Part shown: positions 767 to 33,993 of the stretch, piece by piece
Layout of the letters: each line of letters begins with the position of its first letter
Numbering within the stretch: the first letter of the stretch is position 1
Virus record (IMG/VR): IMGVR_UViG_3300005340_000058
Coordinates: 1-37,858 of that record
Origin: a virus
DNA length: 37,858 nucleotides
Direction: 5' to 3' (one strand)
Notes under the pieces: model-generated
Databases searched by the model: none
What the model was told of the DNA's origin: nothing
The model's input: the letters and a program-made list of their open reading frames with translations, nothing else
Made by a program: the position numbers and the translations under genes

Positions 767-1028
767 TGAAATTACAACTCCCAAACTGGGGCCGTCCCAG
801 CAAATCGCATTCGATGCCATCAGGGACATTGCAAAGGGAATGGTTCCTGGTGAAAGGTTCCCCACATTCAGAGCACTAACTTTCGCTGCGGAAGTCAAGT
901 CTACCGAAACAGTTCACATCGCAATGCAGTGGGCCATTGTGAGTGGAATTGCGGAACGTCGAGAAGACGGCAATCAAAACCGAAAGGTCTATTACGTGAA
1001 GGCGGGAAATGAACAAGCGAGCGCGTGA
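738..1028 (+). CDS. Winged-helix DNA-binding protein, GntR-like (96 aa)
   Basis: Residues about 22-80 follow the winged-helix pattern of GntR-type regulators: a first helix with IRDIAKG, then MVPGERFPTFRAL (compare the family's PG-x-x-LPs-x-R-x-LA), a recognition-helix segment with KSTETVHIAMQWAIVSG and a wing with IAERREDG...VYYV. No effector domain follows, so it is a stand-alone DNA binder. ATG 738 overlaps the previous gene by 29 nt; no later ATG/GTG in frame keeps the domain. It could regulate the early operon or act on a host promoter. Assignment is by pattern only. Confidence 0.5.
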   Translation: MSSSHSIGGSEITTPKLGPSQQIAFDAIRDIAKGMVPGERFPTFRALTFAAEVKSTETVHIAMQWAIVSGIAERREDGNQNRKVYYVKAGNEQASA

Positions 1029-1194
1029 AGGCAGAGCCTGGATTAAAGCCAGGCGCGAGGCCAGGAAAGTCTGGCGAAAGACATTCATCTATCCACGACT
1101 AATGGAATCCAACGAGAAGTTCGTCAAATCGTTTCTCGATTTGGATAACACGCAATACGAAGCCTTCAAGAAGGCGATCGTAGAACCGTTTTAG
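1009..1194 (+). CDS. Small basic helical protein (61 aa)
   Basis: ATG 1009 overlaps the previous gene by 20 nt and follows GGCGGGAAA. The N-terminal half is strongly basic (MNKRAREGRAWIKARREARK), suggestive of nucleic-acid contact, and the C-terminal half is an amphipathic helix with FLDLDNTQYEAFKKAI. No known domain was recognised. The next 150 nt contain no gene but a large RNA-like fold, so this is the last gene before that element. Confidence 0.55.
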   Translation: MNKRAREGRAWIKARREARKVWRKTFIYPRLMESNEKFVKSFLDLDNTQYEAFKKAIVEPF

Positions 1195-1198
1195 TCAA

Positions 1199-1328
1199 GG
1201 ATTCGGGGAGTAGGCATGCGAATCACGTGGTAGCCTTGCGGGCAGCTTGCCCGGCCCCGAAGGGGGTGGGTGAGCTGCGGGCAAGATAGCGCCACGTGAA
1301 TTCGTTTGCCGAGAGGCTCCCCGAATCC
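1199..1328 (+). ncRNA. Candidate structured RNA, about 130 nt, nested long stem
   Basis: The intergenic stretch folds on itself over its whole length. Outer stem: 1199-1210 with 1317-1328, 12 perfect pairs. Next: GGCA 1213-1216 with TGCC 1307-1310. Next: CGAAT + CACGTGG (1219-1230) with CCACGTG + ATTCG (1292-1304), 12 pairs with one bulged A. The interior can fold as CTTGC/GCAAG (1235-1239 with 1281-1285) enclosing a CGGGCA/TGCCCG hairpin (1239-1253) and a CCCC-GAA-GGGG hairpin (1255-1265), or as an alternative 8-bp CTTGCCCG/CGGGCAAG helix. There is no U-tract, so it is not a simple terminator. It ends 6 nt before the ribosome site of the 1347 gene. The pairing is seen directly; function is not known. 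Confidence 0.6.
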
Positions 1329-1346
1329 GTAATTGAAAGGCATCAA

Positions 1347-1523
1347 GTGAAGCGTAGATACTTCCAGTTGGGGCGCAGGCCTTATCAAATCACCCTGTAC
1401 ATCTACAACCACATTACCTTCACATTAGAAATTGGCAGGTTCGAGCTTTCCATAAATTGGTGGTTCAAGGGAGCAAGGCTCAAGAGGAACCCTGAACCCT
1501 GCAAGCCCCGTCAGCACCCCTAG
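1347..1523 (+). CDS. Small basic beta-rich protein (58 aa)
   Basis: GTG 1347 is chosen because GAAAGG (1335-1340) sits 6 nt upstream; the frame extends back to a GTG at 1296, but that would lie inside the folded RNA element. The product is short and basic, with a hydrophobic/aromatic core (YQITLYIYNHITFTLEIGRF, then INWWF) that looks like several beta strands, and a Pro/Lys/Arg-rich tail. Function is not recognised. Its 3' end runs into a C-rich stretch that leads to the helicase gene. Confidence 0.55.
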   Translation: MKRRYFQLGRRPYQITLYIYNHITFTLEIGRFELSINWWFKGARLKRNPEPCKPRQHP

Positions 1524-1638: not shown

Positions 1639-3669
1639 ATGACAATCGACATGGCGCATTTCGAAACGCAATTCCAGTCCAACCAATTGCATCCCGATAT
1701 GGATGACGTCTTGTTCGAAAAGGTCTGTAATCTGCGAGATCGTATCGCTGATCTCACGGAGACAGTTGAATATCTGAAGTCATTTCTCAATCATGACGAT
1801 GATGAATTGGCTGATCTCCAGCGAATGCGTGACAGTCTGAATCAGGTCCTGGATGAGATTCGCAGGCGCACCGCTCGAATTAATGATGGTCAGCGAATCA
1901 TTAAGAACGAGATTCGCCCTATCAGCAATCAGCTCGAAGCGTCTCAGCGTGAATGGGTCCGCCTCATGGCGGAAATCGAAGCTCAGAAGCGTGAGCGTAA
2001 TAACCGCCTCCAGCTTGAAATGCTGACTGCCCGTGCACCCTGGCGCAGTCGAGCATTGAAGCATCAATGGGAGGGTGCAGTACGCCTCACATCTGCTAAG
2101 CGTGCAATTCTCGGCGATTCTCCCGGCCTGGGCAAGACACTGCAATCCATCATGACAGTGGATATGCTGAAGGCTAAGGATGAGGCGCGAAAGATTCTCA
2201 TCTTCTGCCCCAAGCCTGTGCTGGATGGATTTCAGAGGGATTTCGCTAAGTTCTCTCCTGAACAATTCGTCTTCGTTTTGGATCAGGCGGGCAAGGGCGC
2301 AAAATCTAATGTTCTCGATCTGGTCAAGGTTGCGCCTGAGGTAACGGTCCTCACCAATTACGAGGTGTGGCGCAAGGACAAGACAATCATCGATCAGCTG
2401 ATTCACTGCCAATTCGATACCATCATTCTCGATGAGGCACATAATCTCAAGGACAGTCGATCGAGTACCGCAAAAGGCATCAAGCGAATCGTTCAGGCTG
2501 AAAATAAGTGCATGCATTGCGATGCACTCACTTTCGGTTCCACATGCCCCAAATGTGGCGACCAGCCGACAAAGCTTTTCGGTAATCGCTCAGTGAAGAA
2601 TGTGTTCCCGATGACGGGCACGCCAATTCTGAATCGCCCTCAGGATCTTTTTACCATGCTTAACCTGTTGGATTCTGAAGCCTTCCCGACGGAGAATAAG
2701 TTCCTTCAGGACTTTTGCATTCGAAAGTGTGCCGGATGCCACAGGTCTTACAATTGCCTGTGTGAAACTTCTCGCTGGCGCTGGACTTTCGATTCTGGCG
2801 GTGAGGCTCGCTTGCTCAGCCGATTGGGTATGCGATTCACGGCGCGGAATCGTGACAGTGCTGGTGTGGTCATGCCCCCCCAGGAAGTCAAGCATCATTA
2901 CTTTGAACTTGACCCTGAATTGTACCCGAAGCAGACCAAGCTAATTGAAGAGCTGAGGGACAAGGCTCGAATTCAGCTCTCGGAAAGTAAGTCTGTTACT
3001 GAACTCCTTGTCGTGGCCTGGTACACGCGAATGCGTCAGTCGGCTATTTGGCCTGATGCAATCAAGATCAAGGAATTCAACGACGAAGGTGAATACGTTC
3101 GAACCTGGCAGCCTGAAATTGGTGAGTCCATCCTCATGGATGAGGGCGAGAAGCTGATTCGGGATGCTGTCGAATCGGGTAACCGAGTCATCGTATTCTC
3201 GAAGTTCAAAGAGGCGTTGAAGGAAATGGAACGACGTCTCTTGAACGTTAATAGTGACGACGATCCGTTCTGTACTGTCGTACGATATGACAGTGATTTG
3301 AGTGACGCAGACCGATTGATTGCCCAGCATGATTTCGACCTCACGGTAACCGATCCGAAGAAGTCGAAGTTCCAAGTTATGCTGGCCCAGTATGATTCAG
3401 CCAAGGTTGGACTGAATCTTCACGGTGCGCAGGAAGTTGTCTTTCTTGACCGTGAATGGAATCCGGGCATGGAAACTCAGGCGATGGATCGTGTGCGACG
3501 CATCGGATCTGAATTCGATACCATCGTCCACATCCTCCATTGCAAGGGTACGGCCACGGACCTGATTGATGAACTCATCAAGGAGAAAGAAGCCATGCTC
3601 AATGGATTCGAATCCGAGATTGAGGAAATCAATATGCAGGAAAAGCTGAGGAAGTACCTGGGGGAATAG
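1639..3669 (+). CDS. SNF2-family DEAD/DEAH-type helicase/ATPase (676 aa)
   Basis: Superfamily 2 translocase of the SNF2 class. Residues about 20-130 are a charged coiled coil. The ATPase core follows: motif I GDSPGLGKT (about 158-166), motif II DEAH (about 264), motif III region TGTPILNRPQDLF (about 325), and in the second lobe GLNLHGA, DREWNPGMETQAMDRVRRIG (motifs V-VI, about 590-620). Two Cys clusters interrupt lobe 1: CMHCDALTFGSTCPKCG (about 291-307) and CIRKCAGCHRSYNCLC (about 359-374), both probable zinc sites. ATG 1639 has AAAGG upstream. SNF2-like helicases occur in many phage replication modules and remodel protein-DNA or replication intermediates; here it heads the early genes after the C-rich leader. 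Confidence 0.9.
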   Translation: MTIDMAHFETQFQSNQLHPDMDDVLFEKVCNLRDRIADLTETVEYLKSFLNHDDDELADLQRMRDSLNQVLDEIRRRTARINDGQRIIKNEIRPISNQLEASQREWVRLMAEIEAQKRERNNRLQLEMLTARAPWRSRALKHQWEGAVRLTSAKRAILGDSPGLGKTLQSIMTVDMLKAKDEARKILIFCPKPVLDGFQRDFAKFSPEQFVFVLDQAGKGAKSNVLDLVKVAPEVTVLTNYEVWRKDKTIIDQLIHCQFDTIILDEAHNLKDSRSSTAKGIKRIVQAENKCMHCDALTFGSTCPKCGDQPTKLFGNRSVKNVFPMTGTPILNRPQDLFTMLNLLDSEAFPTENKFLQDFCIRKCAGCHRSYNCLCETSRWRWTFDSGGEARLLSRLGMRFTARNRDSAGVVMPPQEVKHHYFELDPELYPKQTKLIEELRDKARIQLSESKSVTELLVVAWYTRMRQSAIWPDAIKIKEFNDEGEYVRTWQPEIGESILMDEGEKLIRDAVESGNRVIVFSKFKEALKEMERRLLNVNSDDDPFCTVVRYDSDLSDADRLIAQHDFDLTVTDPKKSKFQVMLAQYDSAKVGLNLHGAQEVVFLDREWNPGMETQAMDRVRRIGSEFDTIVHILHCKGTATDLIDELIKEKEAMLNGFESEIEEINMQEKLRKYLGE

Positions 3670-3937: not shown

Positions 3938-4001
3938 ACGAGATGACCGCTATCAGTCATACCGACCGAAGCTTTTCGACCACTCAAGGACCCTAAAGTA
4001 A
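3924..4001 (+). CDS. Mini-protein (25 aa)
   Basis: ATG 3924 lies 5 nt after GGAGGG (3913-3918), one of the better ribosome sites in this arm, and overlaps the previous gene by 14 nt. The peptide is MSNHERDDRYQSYRPKLFDH plus five residues: polar, with no membrane segment. The good ribosome site is the main support; a leader-peptide role for the folded region that follows is possible but speculative. Confidence 0.4.
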   Translation: MSNHERDDRYQSYRPKLFDHSRTLK

Positions 4002-4015
4002 AAACTTGGTAAAGT

Positions 4016-4253
4016 GGATAGGATAAATCCCTTATGTCCTATCCATCTTGCCGGTCCATACCGCTATACTGGCATTGCTGCAAGAGGGGTTAGCACCCCA
4101 AATGCAGTTGCAATCCCCGCAATCCCCCGGTCGACTTGCTTTCGACCGGGGGAGAGGGGGTAGAGGCCAGAAGCGGTAATTCCTTAGCCTGCAATTCCGA
4201 TCGCCACCTTCGGAAGGCTGACGGAATTGCCGCTTTCTCTTTTAGGTGGCCAA
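4016..4253 (+). promoter_or_regulatory. Long folded leader with ribosome-site-masking helix (riboswitch-like)
   Basis: No gene fits here; instead there are successive inverted repeats. GGATAGGA 4016-4023 pairs with TCCTATCC 4037-4044. TCTTGC 4046-4051 pairs with GCAAGA 4080-4085. GGGGT 4086-4090 pairs with ACCCC 4095-4099. CCCCCGGTCGA 4124-4134 pairs with TCGACCGGGGG 4142-4152 (11 bp, 7-nt loop). Then come competing partners: AAGCGGTAATTCC 4171-4183 or GCAATTCCG 4191-4199 can each pair with 4222-4235. GCCACCT 4203-4209 is exactly complementary to AGGTGGC 4244-4250, which contains the ribosome site of the 4254 gene. This layout resembles a translational switch. The helices are seen; any ligand or protein partner is unknown. 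Confidence 0.5.
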
Positions 4254-4460
4254 ATGCTTCAGCTTCTATCATGGGGATCGGAAAGACTAGTGGGATCACA
4301 GGACCCGGATTACGATGTGGTTCCGATGCTGGGATCTGAACTTCTGGAATTGACTTGCGTCGACTGTGCCAAATTGGTCGAAACCAATTTGACAGAAGAT
4401 GACGTTGAATACTACAAGGCAATTCATGACAAGTGGCACAATGAAGGGATGCAGCCGTGA
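4254..4460 (+). CDS. Small C2H2-type zinc-binding protein candidate (68 aa)
   Basis: ATG 4254 follows AGGTGG (4244-4249). The C-terminal half has TCVDCAKLVE, then after 22 residues IHDKWHNEG, i.e. C-x2-C ... H-x3-H, the spacing of a small zinc finger. The next gene has a similar C ... C ... H-x3-H layout, so the two look like a tandem pair. The ribosome site can be masked by upstream pairing (see the 4016-4253 leader), so expression may be controlled at translation. DNA, RNA or protein binding are all possible; no specific family recognised. Confidence 0.65.
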   Translation: MLQLLSWGSERLVGSQDPDYDVVPMLGSELLELTCVDCAKLVETNLTEDDVEYYKAIHDKWHNEGMQP

Positions 4461-4630
4461 ATGAAATCACTGTTGAAATCAAGCCCAATGAAGCAACAGG
4501 GCGATTCAATATCGTATGCTCAGATCCTGATTGTTCACCGGGTGAAGCTCTCACTGTTGAGCAAGCAGTAGAGCAAAAACTCTGGCATCTCAATTGGCAT
4601 GCGACAAAGGAAAAGCCGTGGGTATCCTAG
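4457..4630 (+). CDS. Small C2H2-type zinc-binding protein candidate (57 aa)
   Basis: GTG 4457 overlaps the preceding TGA (GTGA), the only good start that keeps the frame. The protein has CSDPDC near residues 21-26 and HLNWH near 44-48, giving C-x4-C ... H-x3-H, parallel to the previous protein. The segment VEQAVEQKLWHLNWHA looks like a finger helix. The gene overlaps the next small membrane-protein gene by 13 nt. Function unknown; the duplicated architecture suggests a shared target. Confidence 0.6.
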   Translation: MNEITVEIKPNEATGRFNIVCSDPDCSPGEALTVEQAVEQKLWHLNWHATKEKPWVS

Positions 4631-11161: not shown

Positions 11162-11493
11162 AAAGGCGTCTAGTTGGAACGACTGCCGATATAGCCACCA
11201 CTGCACTCACGTGGCCAAATGAAGTACAACTCATCATCTTCGGATTCTTCGAGTACCTTTCAATGGCAAGGTCACAAGATGAATTCAAAGCAGAAGCTGA
11301 AATCCCGGATGATGCGCCATCCATCGTCAAGAACTGTCTGGCTGACAAGCTAGGTAAATGCTACAGGTCAGTCACCAAAGCCTTCGACGGAAATTACATC
11401 CTCTTCGATTGGTATGAGTCGAATGATGGAACCAAGGTGATTTTCTGGCGTATCGAATGGCCCAGACCAAAGGGTTCATTTGAATTCAAGTAG
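11155..11493 (+). CDS. Hypothetical protein (112 aa), last gene of the + strand arm
   Basis: AGGAGA (11145-11150) precedes two adjacent GTG codons at 11155 and 11158; either could start translation. The protein has an N-terminal basic segment (VKRRLVG), a hydrophobic helix (WPNEVQLIIFGFFEYLS) and a C-terminal beta part rich in Trp/Phe (GNYILFDWYESNDGTKVIFW). No recognised domain. It ends 2 nt before a strong bidirectional terminator. Confidence 0.65.
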   Translation: MVKRRLVGTTADIATTALTWPNEVQLIIFGFFEYLSMARSQDEFKAEAEIPDDAPSIVKNCLADKLGKCYRSVTKAFDGNYILFDWYESNDGTKVIFWRIEWPRPKGSFEFK

Positions 11494-11494
11494 C

Positions 11495-11530
11495 AAAAAG
11501 CCCGTCCCTACATTCAGGGACGGGCTTTTT
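11495..11530. terminator. Bidirectional intrinsic terminator between convergent arms
   Basis: AAAAAGCCCGTCCCT (11495-11509) pairs with AGGGACGGGCTTTTT (11516-11530): 15 bp, 6-nt loop, with an A-run on one side and a T-run on the other, so it can stop transcription from both directions. It lies between the last + strand gene (ends 11493) and the last - strand gene (ends 11534). Confidence 0.95.
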
Positions 11531-11533
11531 GCG

Positions 11534-27394: not shown

Positions 27395-29632
27395 CTACAT
27401 TGGGGGAGGGGTAGGAATAGGCGGGGGAGGCAATGGGTTGGAACCAGTGGGATTGCCTCCCCCGCCTTGCTGGCCAGCCTCGGGGGAAGGACCGCCCATT
27501 TGAGGGGGTGGGGTCCCCTGGGGCGGTTGCTGACCAGCGGCAATTGCCTGAAGAGCTTCCGGAGGAACCTGACCGGATTCGAATCCACCCGACGTAACTG
27601 AATTCTGTCCAGGGAGCGGCATTGGCGCCCCAGGCATCATTCCAGTTGCCATCATATGCTGATTCACATGCTCTTCAAACAAAGCTCTTGTCTCAGGAGG
27701 TAGTGTCTCATACTCCTGAGATTTTCGGTATGTGTTGTGTACCTGAATATGTACCTGATGATTGTCGAACGAATTCACAGGAACAATCAGGGGTGGCTGA
27801 GTAGGATTACCAGCCATATCTACAAGTGGCTTCTGTGTATTTGGGTCGATCATAGCAGGTTCGCCCGTCATCGGGTCAACACCCTGGAACGTCTGCAAAT
27901 ACTGACTCAATAGATCCTGAGTCACCGCAGCCATTCGAGTGTTTTCACGCTGAGCCTGAGCTGAATCGACCTTCAATTCCTGATAGAGGTTTTGAACTCC
28001 GCCGACCTCCATCAATTCAAGACCCTTCTCCGGGGGAATAAATCCCTGACCCATGAGATCCATCAGAAGAGCTTGTTTGGCAGATTTCGAAGTCGGCAAT
28101 GCAGATCCGGCCTCAACGCGAATGTCAGTGTTGTTTCGGAGGTCACTCCCCTGAAAACTGACGACATTGAATTGCTGGTCCCGCCCTGCAACCTTGACAA
28201 TTCGCGGAGTATCCCAATACTGCTTGACATAGCAGAGGGTTTGATACCCGATCTTTTCGAAACCTTCCTCAATGTTCTGGAAGGTTGCAGAAAGCATTGA
28301 TTCATCCTGCTCCTGCAAAAAGTTAATTGCGGTGGCCGCAGTAACCCCAGAGGGAACTTGACCTTTTGAAACCTGATGCTGACCGGAAATGTCTTCCATG
28401 TCCATCAAGAGTCGGTCAATTTCTTGAAGAACATATGCAGGCAAATTCTGGAGCGGGAATGGCACCGGCTGAGGATAGCCGAGTTTGTAATTGATTACCT
28501 GGCCGGGCTCAGTGGTAATTTTGGCCGCATCAATCGAACCCTGAGCCGCCATAATCTGCGGATGCGCCATTCGGTTCTTTGCTTCAATGATCTGGCCCCG
28601 CGTGCGGTTGTATTCACGCTGTACAGGAATCAGGTCGTTGATGACACTGTCATAATAGAACCGTGCCGTAGGGAGGTGTCCGAATTTAATGAAAGGGTAC
28701 TGCTGATGAATATACGGATTACCTTCTACGAATTGGACGATTTGATCCCCGATGATGGTGTACATTCCACCATTGGGCATGAATTCGACATTTCCCGGCT
28801 TGACCCAGACCTCATAGCACAAGATTGCATTCTTACGAAAATCGCCAGCACCCACAAGCTGAAGAAAGCTATCATTAAGAATGTCATTGGCTTCCATCAC
28901 ATTCGGCTGAGCCTTAATGCCAGGGTAATGCATCTTTACCCATTCAGGACTCTTCGTCTGAATGTGAATGATGTACGGCTGATCTTCAATATCTTCCTGA
29001 AGCATATCAGGAACAAAGAGATGAAACGGTGTCACATTCTCATAGCAGAAATCGCCAGGATTGCCATCTGAGTCAATCTTCGTTGGGTCCCAATACGTCT
29101 TCATGAAACCGTTGCCGGTCGTCAGTGTCCACAATGCAGTTTGACGGAACGTGGCACCGATTTTCTTTTCACGGTAGACGCTATCCCAAATCTGTTCGCC
29201 CGCTAGAGCGGCGGCAGTGTCAGCGTCTTCCGACGTCGCCGGAACAATGGTCGCTGATGGCTTTTGAGCCGTGAGTTTCGAAAGTTCTGTGCGAATGATA
29301 GGGCGAATACGATTGAGAACAGGACGGGCACGATAATAAGGAGCAGGAGGAATGTAAAGGCGCACGCCAGTAGCAGCACTAGAAGCAGAACTGATTGGAA
29401 TGACTGCCACATTTTGCTTTCCAATGTAGAACGCCATATTAATGTACCACTGACGCTCGATCTGCTGTCGAATGGTACGGCATCGCATGTGAGAGGATTT
29501 GGTCCACTCGATTACACGATTCTGAAAATCAGCATCCTTGAGCTTGGCATTTCGCTGCTGCTGCTCGTCACTGCTTGAGCCGGTCTGATCGACACTTCCC
29601 GGCATCATTGATGCATTAGATGGTGTTCCCAT
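27395..29632 (-). CDS. Portal protein (745 aa)
   Basis: A large portal of the podoviral type: N-terminal helices (RTIRQQIERQWYINMAFYIG), a wing/stem region with RARPVLNRIRPIIRTELSKL, PVQREYNRTRGQIIEAKNRM and a crown helix, then a disordered C-terminal tail of about 130 residues rich in Pro, Gly and Gln. Length is close to the P22 portal class. ATG 29632 has AAAAGGAGG 3 nt upstream. It follows terminase and the small Cys-rich genes and precedes scaffold and capsid. Confidence 0.9.
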   Translation of the reverse strand: MGTPSNASMMPGSVDQTGSSSDEQQQRNAKLKDADFQNRVIEWTKSSHMRCRTIRQQIERQWYINMAFYIGKQNVAVIPISSASSAATGVRLYIPPAPYYRARPVLNRIRPIIRTELSKLTAQKPSATIVPATSEDADTAAALAGEQIWDSVYREKKIGATFRQTALWTLTTGNGFMKTYWDPTKIDSDGNPGDFCYENVTPFHLFVPDMLQEDIEDQPYIIHIQTKSPEWVKMHYPGIKAQPNVMEANDILNDSFLQLVGAGDFRKNAILCYEVWVKPGNVEFMPNGGMYTIIGDQIVQFVEGNPYIHQQYPFIKFGHLPTARFYYDSVINDLIPVQREYNRTRGQIIEAKNRMAHPQIMAAQGSIDAAKITTEPGQVINYKLGYPQPVPFPLQNLPAYVLQEIDRLLMDMEDISGQHQVSKGQVPSGVTAATAINFLQEQDESMLSATFQNIEEGFEKIGYQTLCYVKQYWDTPRIVKVAGRDQQFNVVSFQGSDLRNNTDIRVEAGSALPTSKSAKQALLMDLMGQGFIPPEKGLELMEVGGVQNLYQELKVDSAQAQRENTRMAAVTQDLLSQYLQTFQGVDPMTGEPAMIDPNTQKPLVDMAGNPTQPPLIVPVNSFDNHQVHIQVHNTYRKSQEYETLPPETRALFEEHVNQHMMATGMMPGAPMPLPGQNSVTSGGFESGQVPPEALQAIAAGQQPPQGTPPPQMGGPSPEAGQQGGGGNPTGSNPLPPPPIPTPPPM

Positions 29633-30798: not shown

Positions 30799-30955
30799 TT
30801 GATTCTCCGCAATGTGAGCAAGTGACTGGGTCAAAACAAGAACAGTCGTCATGCTCACAACACATTTCGCCACAAGTCCTACAGTAAAAGCGAAGACCTT
30901 TTTCGAGACAATTACAAAACGTCTTCAAATCCTTGGACTCCTGTGGAGTTTCCAT
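30785..30955 (-). CDS. Cys-rich double-knuckle mini-protein (56 aa)
   Basis: ATG 30955 has GAGGAAG immediately upstream and overlaps the end of the terminase gene by 44 nt. There are ten cysteines: FCNC (14, 16), FYCRTCGEMCCEHDDCSC (25, 28, 32, 33, 38, 40) and TCSHCGE (46, 49), consistent with zinc ribbons. It is too short and too overlapped to be reported routinely, but the regular CxxC pattern and ribosome site make it convincing. Function unknown. Confidence 0.65.
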   Translation of the reverse strand: METPQESKDLKTFCNCLEKGLRFYCRTCGEMCCEHDDCSCFDPVTCSHCGESIEVD

Positions 30956-32459
30956 CTTCCTCATTTAGAACAATTTGCCAATTAGTCTTCGGACGGCCCA
31001 ATGCGGCAGGAGTCAAATTAGGATCTACCCAAACCTGCCCAGGCATTCGAGCCGAATCACCTCCAATTTTAGGTAGAACGGAAGCTTGAGGCATTGGCTT
31101 TCTGTCAGCCAATGTAGGCATAAAACTGAAAAAGTACCTGCATTCATCGCAGGCATGGTCATCTTTTTTGTGGATCTGATCATGCGGATTGTTTTGCGAA
31201 GCTTGCTTTTTTGATGCCCAAGTCTTCCAGCGCAATCTTTGGATTTCACGGATCAGGTTAACACAATTGCGAGTGATGTACCAGTTGGGCTTTCCATTTG
31301 CCCCAATAGCTAGATACTGATTTACCTTTGCTACACCAGTCATCACATCGTTATTACCGAGCACAAAACCGATGTTGCGAATAGCGTACTCGGTTTGGAT
31401 GGAAGTTCCGGTGACAGCTTGCTTTTGCGCTAGAGCAGGGTCACAAATGTTGACGTCAGGCACCCGACCATGCTCAGCATTTTTAGCATGAATGACGGCG
31501 GCATGATATTCGATGATCTTCTGTGATTCGTAATGCTCATCGAATGTGATTGCTACGTTGTCTGTATCTACTGCGTGCCAATGAACTGAAGTTGGATTGT
31601 TGAAGCCATGATCCAATGACATGTAATGCTTGTAATTACGACCTACGACTTCTTTGAATTCAATTGGATCGATGATGTGAATTTGTGGATTAAATGACTT
31701 GTAGACCAAGCCGCCCATTTGGACGAACTTACCTTCGCCTCGCGCTTTACGCTCATCATCATCCAGTGAATCAAGGAACTCAGTCACTTCACTTTGGTCG
31801 AGGTAAGGATTTTCGCCCATGTCGACTTCGATGACGTCAATGTTCTTTTGCTGAAGAATGCCCGGCTCGTAAATAGTGTCGAAAATCCATGTCATCCCTT
31901 CAACGGGAGTCATGGTAATCCACATTCGACCCTTACGGTCAATCAGTCGAGCTTTGCATTCGGTGTAGATTGACTCTGGGGGCTCTTCGTCAAAATGGAC
32001 GAAATCTCGCGATGTGCCTGCGAATTTGTCCAAGTCTTGGTCATAGGACATGAGTTCAACGAAGCTGCCGTTTTCAAGGTAGAGAGTTCGTGTAGATGCT
32101 TCGTAAGCGTCTGTCCAAGTTCCTCCGCGAAGCTGGGATGGAGGAATCCATTGCTTGAGCTGAGGTTTGATGATTTTCTCAATACCGTTGAGAAAGTCAA
32201 CAGATACGATTCGCCCAGCGATGGGACGATCTGGAATTCGAATGAAAGGGTGCTTACGGGTGAGCCACCAAATGTCCTCAACAATTCCGCCCGTAGTTTT
32301 TCCACTACGGTTGCCGCCAATGTATAGGCGTGTCCTTTTCTCGCTACTGTGGAACAGTTTTTGTTTTGAATGTGGTCGATAACCGTTAATGTCCGGATAC
32401 GCAGCAACTCGGGAGAGGTTTTCACTCAAATCCTTGAAAACGTCATTGATGCCGACCAT
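30912..32459 (-). CDS. terL: Large terminase subunit, packaging ATPase-nuclease (515 aa)
   Basis: Walker A GGNRSGKT (about 48-55), Walker B with FDEEP (about 156-160) and a SLDHGFNNP-type acidic motif in the C-terminal RNase-H-like nuclease domain (about residue 280) identify the DNA-packaging motor. The start is uncertain: ATG 32459 has only AAAAAG upstream, ATG 32495 has no ribosome site, and a perfect AGAAGGAGG (32484-32492) sits between them followed by CTA ATC. The 56-aa Cys-rich gene overlaps its 3' end. A long hairpin lies just upstream in the transcript. Confidence 0.93.
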   Translation of the reverse strand: MVGINDVFKDLSENLSRVAAYPDINGYRPHSKQKLFHSSEKRTRLYIGGNRSGKTTGGIVEDIWWLTRKHPFIRIPDRPIAGRIVSVDFLNGIEKIIKPQLKQWIPPSQLRGGTWTDAYEASTRTLYLENGSFVELMSYDQDLDKFAGTSRDFVHFDEEPPESIYTECKARLIDRKGRMWITMTPVEGMTWIFDTIYEPGILQQKNIDVIEVDMGENPYLDQSEVTEFLDSLDDDERKARGEGKFVQMGGLVYKSFNPQIHIIDPIEFKEVVGRNYKHYMSLDHGFNNPTSVHWHAVDTDNVAITFDEHYESQKIIEYHAAVIHAKNAEHGRVPDVNICDPALAQKQAVTGTSIQTEYAIRNIGFVLGNNDVMTGVAKVNQYLAIGANGKPNWYITRNCVNLIREIQRLRWKTWASKKQASQNNPHDQIHKKDDHACDECRYFFSFMPTLADRKPMPQASVLPKIGGDSARMPGQVWVDPNLTPAALGRPKTNWQIVLNEEDGNSTGVQGFEDVL

Positions 32460-32503
32460 CTTTTTCTGACGAGGGGGGATTAGCCTCCTTCTCATTCCAG
32501 TTC

Positions 32504-32665
32504 GAAAGTTTTAACTTTGCTTTCATTTGACGGGGGTCCCTCGCTCCATGCTTTCACCTGGCCCGGTTGCGGCCCACCCCCTCCACTCCGTTCCGGGGCC
32601 GGTCCACGCCCTAAACCAGGCTACAGCATTCCGCCCCCCGTCAAATGGCAAAGTCGAAAACTTTC
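32504..32665 (-). ncRNA. Long inverted-repeat RNA element upstream of terminase (about 160 nt)
   Basis: Left arm segments pair in order with right arm segments. GAAAGTTTT 32504-32512 pairs with 32657-32665. ACTTTGC 32514-32520 pairs with GCAAAGT 32648-32654. CATTTGACGGGGG 32524-32536 pairs with CCCCCGTCAAATG 32635-32647. ATGCT 32548-32552 pairs with AGCAT 32625-32629. CCTGG 32557-32561 pairs with CCAGG 32616-32620. That is about 39 pairs around a GC-rich core. No gene was supported here, although the tail-fibre gene ends at 32666. The element sits in the leader of the terminase mRNA, or could equally be a DNA-level site. Confidence 0.6.
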
Positions 32666-33364
32666 TCACACGTCCAAATACCTGTCTGTCCCTACCGGGT
32701 AATTCACTCCGGTCAAATGGAATCGGTTCATGTCTGCCGTTCCACCGAAGCATCGAATGCTGGGCTGGTACAGCGGATCACCATTGTCATTCAAATAGAT
32801 CCTCGCACCCTGCCACGCATTCAAGTTGTTTCCGTTGGTTCCGACGGCGACAGGTTCATGTCCGAGCATCCAGGTTCCGGATCGTGCTGGTCTCAATCCA
32901 GTCGGGAGCGGTTTGAAAACTCCCGGTGAAGTGTTTCGCGCGAGGTTTCCTGAAGTTGGTCCAACAACTCCTCGCCAATAACATCTACCCCGAGCATCGA
33001 GTGCAATTGCGAAAGGGTTAGTGGGGACCGGATTGAGGGTCCATCCTGCGATTGCGAGACAGGTGGTTGGGACGGTGAACCATGGGGAAATTGCGTCATG
33101 TACGGGTCTCCAATACCAACCCCAGTTTACGTCCTTACAAATGAGAACGTAAATAGATTGTGTATCACTCTTGTAGAATCTGTCGCCCAGGTTGTATGAA
33201 CCAGATTGGGGAAGCGTTGTTCCTGAATTAGGTGCTGGCACCCCCGCTAGGGCATCCCAGTTTGGATTGATTTGAACGTCTGGAACATTCATTGGGTCAT
33301 TCGTCGTCAACCCCCTGCCGTCAGTCGGTCGAACCAATCCATAATTAGGCGTGGGGGAATGCAT
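32666..33364 (-). CDS. Tail-fibre-like protein, third of three (232 aa)
   Basis: ATG 33364 overlaps the stop of the previous fibre gene (TGATG). It shares the N-terminal INPNWD motif (about residue 33-38) with the two upstream proteins and continues as Gly/Pro/Asn-rich beta sequence with many aromatic residues (DVNWGWYWRPVHDAISPWFT), typical of receptor-binding domains. This one is the most divergent of the three. It lies next to the terminase leader hairpin. Probably a host-recognition fibre or collar component. Confidence 0.65.
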   Translation of the reverse strand: MHSPTPNYGLVRPTDGRGLTTNDPMNVPDVQINPNWDALAGVPAPNSGTTLPQSGSYNLGDRFYKSDTQSIYVLICKDVNWGWYWRPVHDAISPWFTVPTTCLAIAGWTLNPVPTNPFAIALDARGRCYWRGVVGPTSGNLARNTSPGVFKPLPTGLRPARSGTWMLGHEPVAVGTNGNNLNAWQGARIYLNDNGDPLYQPSIRCFGGTADMNRFHLTGVNYPVGTDRYLDV

Positions 33365-33993
33365 CAATACCACCACCAGATTTGATCGAGTGCAATGAAA
33401 TTCCCTCCACCGGGGCCACCCATGTATTGGACTCGGATGCGACAGAAAGTGTTGGCGACCGGCTTATCTACAGTCACATAGGCTCCAGCGACAATTGCTG
33501 GTGCAGCTGCAATTGCAGTTGGTGTGGGTCCAATCATTGCACCGCCGACGGGGAAAGACGTTCCTGGAATCCCTCCCGCAACGTCATTCGTAATCAGGAA
33601 AGTTGCACCCAAAGTCCAGGCATTCGATGACGCGTCAAAAAGAACTCCACCACGCAATTCGACTTTGCGCATAAGGGGATTCTGGCGCCACTTTAGAATG
33701 TTACCTGGGCGAGTAACTCGTGGGGAAATAATTGGTACCGCAGTCCACGCGGTCCATGCAGCGTCAATGTCATCTGGTTCCCTTCGAGCTGTACCATTCC
33801 ACACTGATGCTCTAGGTCCGGGCGTGCCTAGGAATTCCTGTCCCGCCTCCAATCCACTGAGACTTCCACCATTCACATATGGCGTTAGTTTGGTTTCGAT
33901 ATGATCCCAGTTGTTATTGAGTTGTGTAGCTTCATTGACAGTTGGGTCATTGGGTGCAGGTGGAACAATCTTGGTGAAATTGAAGTATGCCAT
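33364..33993 (-). CDS. Tail-fibre-like protein, second of three (209 aa)
   Basis: ATG 33993 overlaps the previous stop (TAATG). The N terminus (TVNEATQLNNNWDHIETKLT) resembles the shaft-anchor segment of phage fibres, and the C-terminal two-thirds are beta-rich and end in an aromatic strand (GGNFIALDQIWWWY). Similar N-terminal motifs occur in the neighbours, so tandem duplication followed by tip divergence is likely (inference). Receptor recognition at the cell surface is the expected role. Confidence 0.7.
   Translation of the reverse strand: MAYFNFTKIVPPAPNDPTVNEATQLNNNWDHIETKLTPYVNGGSLSGLEAGQEFLGTPGPRASVWNGTARREPDDIDAAWTAWTAVPIISPRVTRPGNILKWRQNPLMRKVELRGGVLFDASSNAWTLGATFLITNDVAGGIPGTSFPVGGAMIGPTPTAIAAAPAIVAGAYVTVDKPVANTFCRIRVQYMGGPGGGNFIALDQIWWWY

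Follow-up and report, generated by a model that had tools for sequence, protein, structure and literature searches.

A strand-specific hairpin family common to tailed phages and Streptomyces mobile elements: candidate single-strand initiation sites

The main finding of this analysis is that two long imperfect hairpins in the non-coding DNA of a virus belong to one uncatalogued family, new to Rfam, whose other members lie in related tailed phages and, in Streptomyces, on pSAM2-type integrative elements and on linear plasmids. The window, by which is meant the whole stretch of DNA that was analysed, is a 37,858-base virus record of IMG/VR, and it carries one copy on each strand, element 1 or H (1199..1328, +) ahead of a helicase gene and element 2 or T (32504..32665, −) ahead of the gene for the large terminase subunit, terL. 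Both are proposed to be sso/ssi-like single-strand initiation hairpins that would prime synthesis of the complementary strand as folded single-stranded DNA, a reading that stands about evenly balanced between being right and being wrong. Within it, the single-stranded acting form, the priming function, the host factor and the position of the origin are features that we infer.

Element H occupies the space between two small open reading frames, the first of which (1009..1194, +) has a stop codon ending 4 nt 5′ of the hairpin core, while the second (1347..1523, +; 58 amino acids with a GTG start, preceded by GAAAGG) begins 18 nt past it and is followed by a SNF2-type helicase gene (1639..3669, +; Pfam PF00176/PF00271). 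The three helices of the original prediction are confirmed, namely the 12-bp stem P2 (1199-1210/1317-1328), a 4-bp stem (1213-1216/1307-1310) and a bulged 12-bp stem (1219-1230/1292-1304), with the 3′ bulge GAGAGG at 1311-1316. The interior, drawn at that stage as two small hairpins or an 8-bp helix, is actually one further continuous helix that runs to an apical loop near 1260, and the overall shape is that of a single unbranched hairpin. A weak outer stem extends the structure to 1187..1340 and spans the upstream gene's stop codon as well as the ribosome site for the gene that follows.

The folding energy of positions 1190-1340 is -96 kcal/mol, against -53.8 +/- 4.4 for dinucleotide shuffles (z -9.55, with 0 of 200 shuffles as low), and in a GC-corrected scan of the whole window no other fold of the + strand is as extreme as element 1 relative to GC content. 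Could such a structure be an ordinary intrinsic terminator, or a fold that GC-rich sequence adopts by chance? A GC-rich hairpin between genes invites the thought, but there is no T tract in element 1, the absence on which a terminator had already been judged unlikely, and the explanation is refuted by the shuffle z-scores of both elements (-9.6 and -8.0) together with the covariation set out below; the length of 130-200 nt and the conserved internal loops add to this, leaving it hardly credible. The window holds no tRNA, and Rfam 15 gave no match at the gathering threshold in the window or its relatives, a relaxed threshold returning chance matches only.

Several other structures occur in the window. 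Just upstream of the helicase start lies a 38-nt imperfect inverted repeat (74%; 1520-1602), of which the minus strand folds better, and the long gap (3938-4598) from the helicase to the next conserved gene contains a further strong hairpin (4101-4251, +) that is matched by neither of the covariance models, R1 and R2, described below; strong folds stand at comparable places in relatives G001 (537-655) and G012 (39880-39995). A perfect 17-bp inverted repeat, GCAAAAAGCCCGTCCCT/AGGGACGGGCTTTTTGC (11493-11532), near the convergence of two transcription units is likely to be a bidirectional terminator, and a very stable fold at 27401-27550 lies within coding sequence at the 3′ end of a portal-like gene.

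The second element, with its predicted shared core, is equally real: the core CCGGCCCCG...GGGGGTGGG is found in it, both elements have the same anatomy, and element T is a second copy of the family of element 1. On the minus strand it folds with -91.5 kcal/mol (z -8.0), the full hairpin with its P1 lower stem spanning 32504..32665 and the core used in model R1 spanning 32524..32647 (−; 85 bits). The gene upstream (32666..33376, −) has its stop codon 18 nt before this core, and terL (30912..32495, −; PF03237) is directly downstream. The start codon of terL seems to drift among relatives, where ATG, TTG and CTG are seen, and by alignment the start in the window would be ATC, unless an upstream ATG at 32495 that overlaps the ribosome site serves (32480-32495, −).

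From the outside inward the anatomy consists of an outer stem P1, P2, a 3′ bulge, P3, a UA/UAA bulge and P4. The bulge on the 3′ side measures 4-6 nt and usually contains GAGG or GAGNG (GAGGGA, GAGAGG, GAGCGAGGG), the UA or UAA bulge follows P3 (as in GUAGGCUGG and UUACGCU), P4 terminates in CAGG...CCUG, and about half of the phage copies end in the tip GA-C-GNA-G-GA. In 23 of 23 copies under RNA parameters, and in 22 of 23 under DNA parameters, the complement folds less well than the named strand, an asymmetry that fixes the acting strand and that does not separate RNA from single-stranded DNA.

Relatives of the virus, about 50 viral contigs, were gathered through the TerL protein; the helicase protein as a direct query against viral contigs gave no matches. 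At a TerL identity of ~72% or more, all contigs that could be examined upstream have the hairpin either directly 5′ of terL or one small gene further away. Model R1 was made from 11 of these terL-side (T) cores, and its alignment contains two-sided, compensatory changes in 28 of 47 pairs, has 82.8% of its cells paired against 68.1% when shuffled, and reaches a covariation score of 0.444 against 0.194 when shuffled and at most 0.17 when slid. The search for compensatory changes suggested with the original prediction thus came out strongly positive, the phage copies diverging widely in sequence with their pairing kept.

When R1 is applied to whole records, near-complete relatives prove to have another copy, 13-15 kb off and on the other strand, and every such second copy examined lies, like element 1, upstream of a homologue of the helicase at 1639-3669. 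Two opposite-strand copies, one 5′ of the SNF2 helicase gene and one 5′ of terL, are thereby present in all eight of the related ~46-kb phages, with the helicase gene downstream of the H copy by synteny in each and the H site the same in 7 relatives. Gene order is common to all seven fetched genomes, five of which have terminal overlaps of 125-132 bases and are complete circular assemblies; the window is without about 8.5 kb of the H-to-T interval. Concerted evolution of the two copies within a genome was suspected from their tips and is not significant (p 0.17-0.25). R1 found no copies in Arthrobacter phage Casserole, Cellulosimicrobium phage DS1 or MW202795, BLAST of both elements against phage records gave no matches, and motif scans of viral contigs returned one already known copy and three unrelated contigs. 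A complete circular phage genome of 46,429 bp makes up contig 11 of the Streptomyces griseosporeus JCM 4766 assembly (NZ_BNBR01000011.1), where it is perhaps a plasmid prophage or a carried phage; because this related genome sits in that assembly, the host of the virus in the window is probably Streptomyces.

The setting of the phage copies raises the question of whether the hairpin works in messenger RNA. In 16 of 16 copies from 8 genomes the core lies on the coding strand just past a stop codon (with a 2-nt overlap in one copy) and before the ribosome site and start codon of the following gene, and each of the two copies runs sense to its operon in all 8 genomes. So exact a fit is what an mRNA element would be expected to show, and it counts against the single-stranded DNA reading. 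The main rival is accordingly a cis-acting RNA, either a put/nut-like antitermination signal or a processing or stability element of the early helicase and late terminase operons, to which the G-U-rich pairing, the conserved bulges and the allotment of a single copy to each divergent operon, in the manner of nutL/nutR or putL/putR, also lend themselves. The copies stand mid-operon, and neither promoter- nor terminator-like sites are clearly above shuffles; that terminator-like sites are not in excess in these operons counts against this rival. A cis-acting RNA also leaves unexplained the context of the integrative-element copies, which often have a convergent NUDIX gene downstream and unconserved sequence upstream. 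Sister phages with a TerL identity of 68% or less have no element at this place, and where inspected their upstream gene abuts terL, gene order being kept in the element-free lineages. Loss of the region with neighbouring genes unaffected had been named at the outset as evidence against function, and these sister phages show it in part; the abutting genes argue against an essential cis-regulator of terL and not against a replication signal. Taken together, these points make a cis-acting RNA unlikely, albeit worthy of serious consideration.

The wider distribution of the family came to light when R1 gave an unexpected match in the S. griseosporeus chromosome and further matches in 7 other genomes among 150 Streptomyces sampled (E 7e-5 to 4e-3). 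The chromosomal matches examined are copies of a single element, about 205 nt long, whose sequence identity between species exceeds 80% and whose bulges are the same as in the phages. Its apical stem reads GGGCAGG...CCTGCCCG(G/T)TAGTGCC, and CCTGCCCGGTAGTGCC is common to it and the phage copy L004 except for one base. Blastn places the element in 247 of 393 genomes of Streptomyces, where it sits mostly on pSAM2-type integrative elements (AICEs); among 296 genomes sampled from the phylum it occurs only in those already drawn as Streptomyces. Model R2, which is made of chromosomal and plasmid copies only, was run on 437 kb of phage genomes and controls and returned 8 matches at E up to 10, all of them at phage T or H sites; the best has an E of 7.5e-5 and one of the eight is an antisense shadow of a T site, such antisense matches of R1 and R2 being expected of a self-complementary element. 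Since the two independent models each find the other group, the phage and chromosomal groups are homologous. Element 1 of the window is found by neither R1 nor R2, so its assignment to the family rests on its anatomy, which includes a GAGAGGCTCCC bulge like that of copy L040, and on its conserved site. A joint alignment of phage and AICE copies gave no third model, the stems being misaligned by MAFFT.

The genes that accompany the mobile-element copies give the strand its meaning in the proposed reading. Among 20-kb regions around 20 chromosomal copies, 16 contain both a RepSA-like initiator (PF20199 in the query protein) and a TraB-like FtsK/SpoIIIE protein (PF01580), with TraB 2.1-4.2 kb and Rep 5.3-8 kb downstream of the element; the element shares its strand with both in 16 of 16 regions, an agreement that does not amount to 16 independent events given that the AICE copies are related. 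The remaining 4 of the 20 have no Rep or TraB within 10 kb, which counts against a single-stranded DNA signal. Several regions have tRNA genes close to their ends, which fits tRNA-integrated elements, and circular plasmids that encode RepSA also bear copies. In 6 of 6 linear-plasmid records with a copy no more than ~2 kb from an end, the copy points inward, several of these plasmids being near relatives; such copies are thus on the strand with its 5′ end at that telomere; in the end-first transfer model for linear replicons this strand would be the displaced one. We infer that the displaced strand is the one bearing the element in both the RepSA/TraB (16/16) and the linear-plasmid-end (6/6) cases. 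A helicase encoded downstream of one linear-plasmid copy was considered as a relative of the phage helicase and is not similar to it.

The sequence before the outer stem is unrelated among the chromosomal copies, and conservation sets in abruptly with that stem's first base, so that no promoter is shared, and the NUDIX gene just downstream is often on the opposite strand. In many of these copies a further stretch of ~100-125 nt after the hairpin (~110 nt downstream) is 95% conserved between species, with differing genes following. Another candidate is a structured RNA that acts in trans, perhaps as a decoy for some defence or regulatory protein of the host, and that Streptomyces mobile elements of several kinds carry. 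It would account for the recurrence of the fold across phage, integrative-element and linear-plasmid copies, for the strong sequence constraint among AICE copies and for the several conserved purine-rich internal loops. It is nevertheless improbable, given that the AICE copies have no conserved upstream sequence as a possible promoter, that the phage copies lie inside operons and that such an RNA would have no need of two diverged copies per phage genome. More improbable still is a selfish or mobile hairpin repeat of the MITE, REP or attC-like kind, functionless for its carrier, although multiple copies per chromosome with unrelated flanks and the clean presence or absence between phage lineages have that appearance. 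The integrative elements that carry the copies account for their spread among chromosomes, and the phage copies keep the same two sites, rather than varying in position between close relatives, across genomes of 40-80% protein identity and with compensatory change.

The hairpin is formed by one particular strand of non-coding DNA, has conserved unpaired parts but no conserved promoter, and keeps to one strand with respect to a rolling-circle initiator; in these features it resembles a single-strand origin. The fold had been put forward as a functional RNA or a structured DNA site; a functional fold that is no terminator is supported, and the fold is in addition conserved and strand-specific. 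A phage non-coding RNA is less likely than a single-stranded DNA signal, because the family extends to integrative elements and plasmids, the upstream sequence is unconserved and the strand is constant with respect to RepSA and TraB. In the proposed mechanism, the element's strand would be exposed as single-stranded DNA during replication and would fold into an imperfect hairpin of ~130-200 nt, displaying the 3′ bulge with GAGG, the UA/UAA bulge and, in many phage copies, the GA-C-GNA-G-GA tip. A host factor, which may be primase or RNA polymerase, would then recognise the hairpin and prime complementary-strand synthesis. The pSAM2-type elements carry one copy, on the RepSA strand, and the phage has two on opposite strands that point outward from the interval between them, such that forks leaving the H-T interval would each meet one hairpin on the lagging-strand template. 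In 7 of 7 phage genomes the GC skew reaches its minimum within the H-T interval, a pattern that gene direction alone could cause, and if replication does start there both elements are on lagging-strand templates. The phage gene set includes the SNF2 helicase, a PD-(D/E)XK exonuclease, a Sak4-like annealing protein and a DnaB/AAA-type helicase, and no primase domain was recognised among the genes scanned. Tailed double-stranded DNA phages are not known to need an sso/ssi-like site, which counts against the reading. The fuller proposal, that a tailed phage family shares initiation hairpins with pSAM2-type elements and linear plasmids and, lacking its own primase, relies on a priming factor of the host to start lagging strands at its inverted pair, is offered tentatively, its chances falling somewhat short of even.

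If the initiation-hairpin reading is right, the element is a candidate minus origin for the pSAM2-type integrative elements of actinomycetes, present in about two thirds of the Streptomyces genomes sampled; no minus origin like it was matched in Rfam or found in the literature searched. Double-stranded DNA phages of the same hosts would then share the signal, which bears on how lagging strands are primed in these phages. A compact element of 130-200 nt with clear limits and a testable strand rule would make second-strand priming in Streptomyces directly testable, and it would supply a search model for more mobile elements.

How does the family compare with known systems? The lambda nutL/nutR and HK022 putL/putR pairs place one RNA element in each divergent phage operon, and the present elements are like them in having two copies in two divergent operons. 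The HK022 put elements are ~70-nt double stem-loops near promoters, unlike the one long unbranched hairpin seen here, which is also found in plasmids outside operons. In RSF1010 the initiation sites ssiA and ssiB are distributed one per strand. The ssi of phiX174 is a single-stranded DNA site that recruits priming enzymes (PMC5714925). Set against these ssi sites the phage elements are longer and their loops differ, with one per strand as in RSF1010. Closer to the proposed host, Streptomyces rolling-circle plasmids have single-strand origins (sso, 'sti') that are worked by host factors and whose loss leaves single-stranded DNA, with that of pIJ101 experimentally defined, single-stranded DNA accumulating in the case of pIJ702, an sso-free derivative of pIJ101, and second-strand priming in pSN22 reported to be independent of RNA polymerase (PMC4170104). 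Unfiltered searches of complete pIJ101, pSN22 and pJV1 with R1 and R2 gave chance-level short hairpins only, with no sequence or covariance match; this counts against the reading, the sso of pIJ101 at least being experimentally defined, and membership of the pIJ101/pSN22 group is for this reason not claimed. The likeness to those origins would instead be one of kind, in that the element is non-coding, has homologues on the rep strand of pSAM2-type rolling-circle elements and is proposed to act in the conversion of single-stranded to double-stranded DNA, whereas the phage differs from them in carrying two inverted copies within a 46-kb double-stranded DNA genome.
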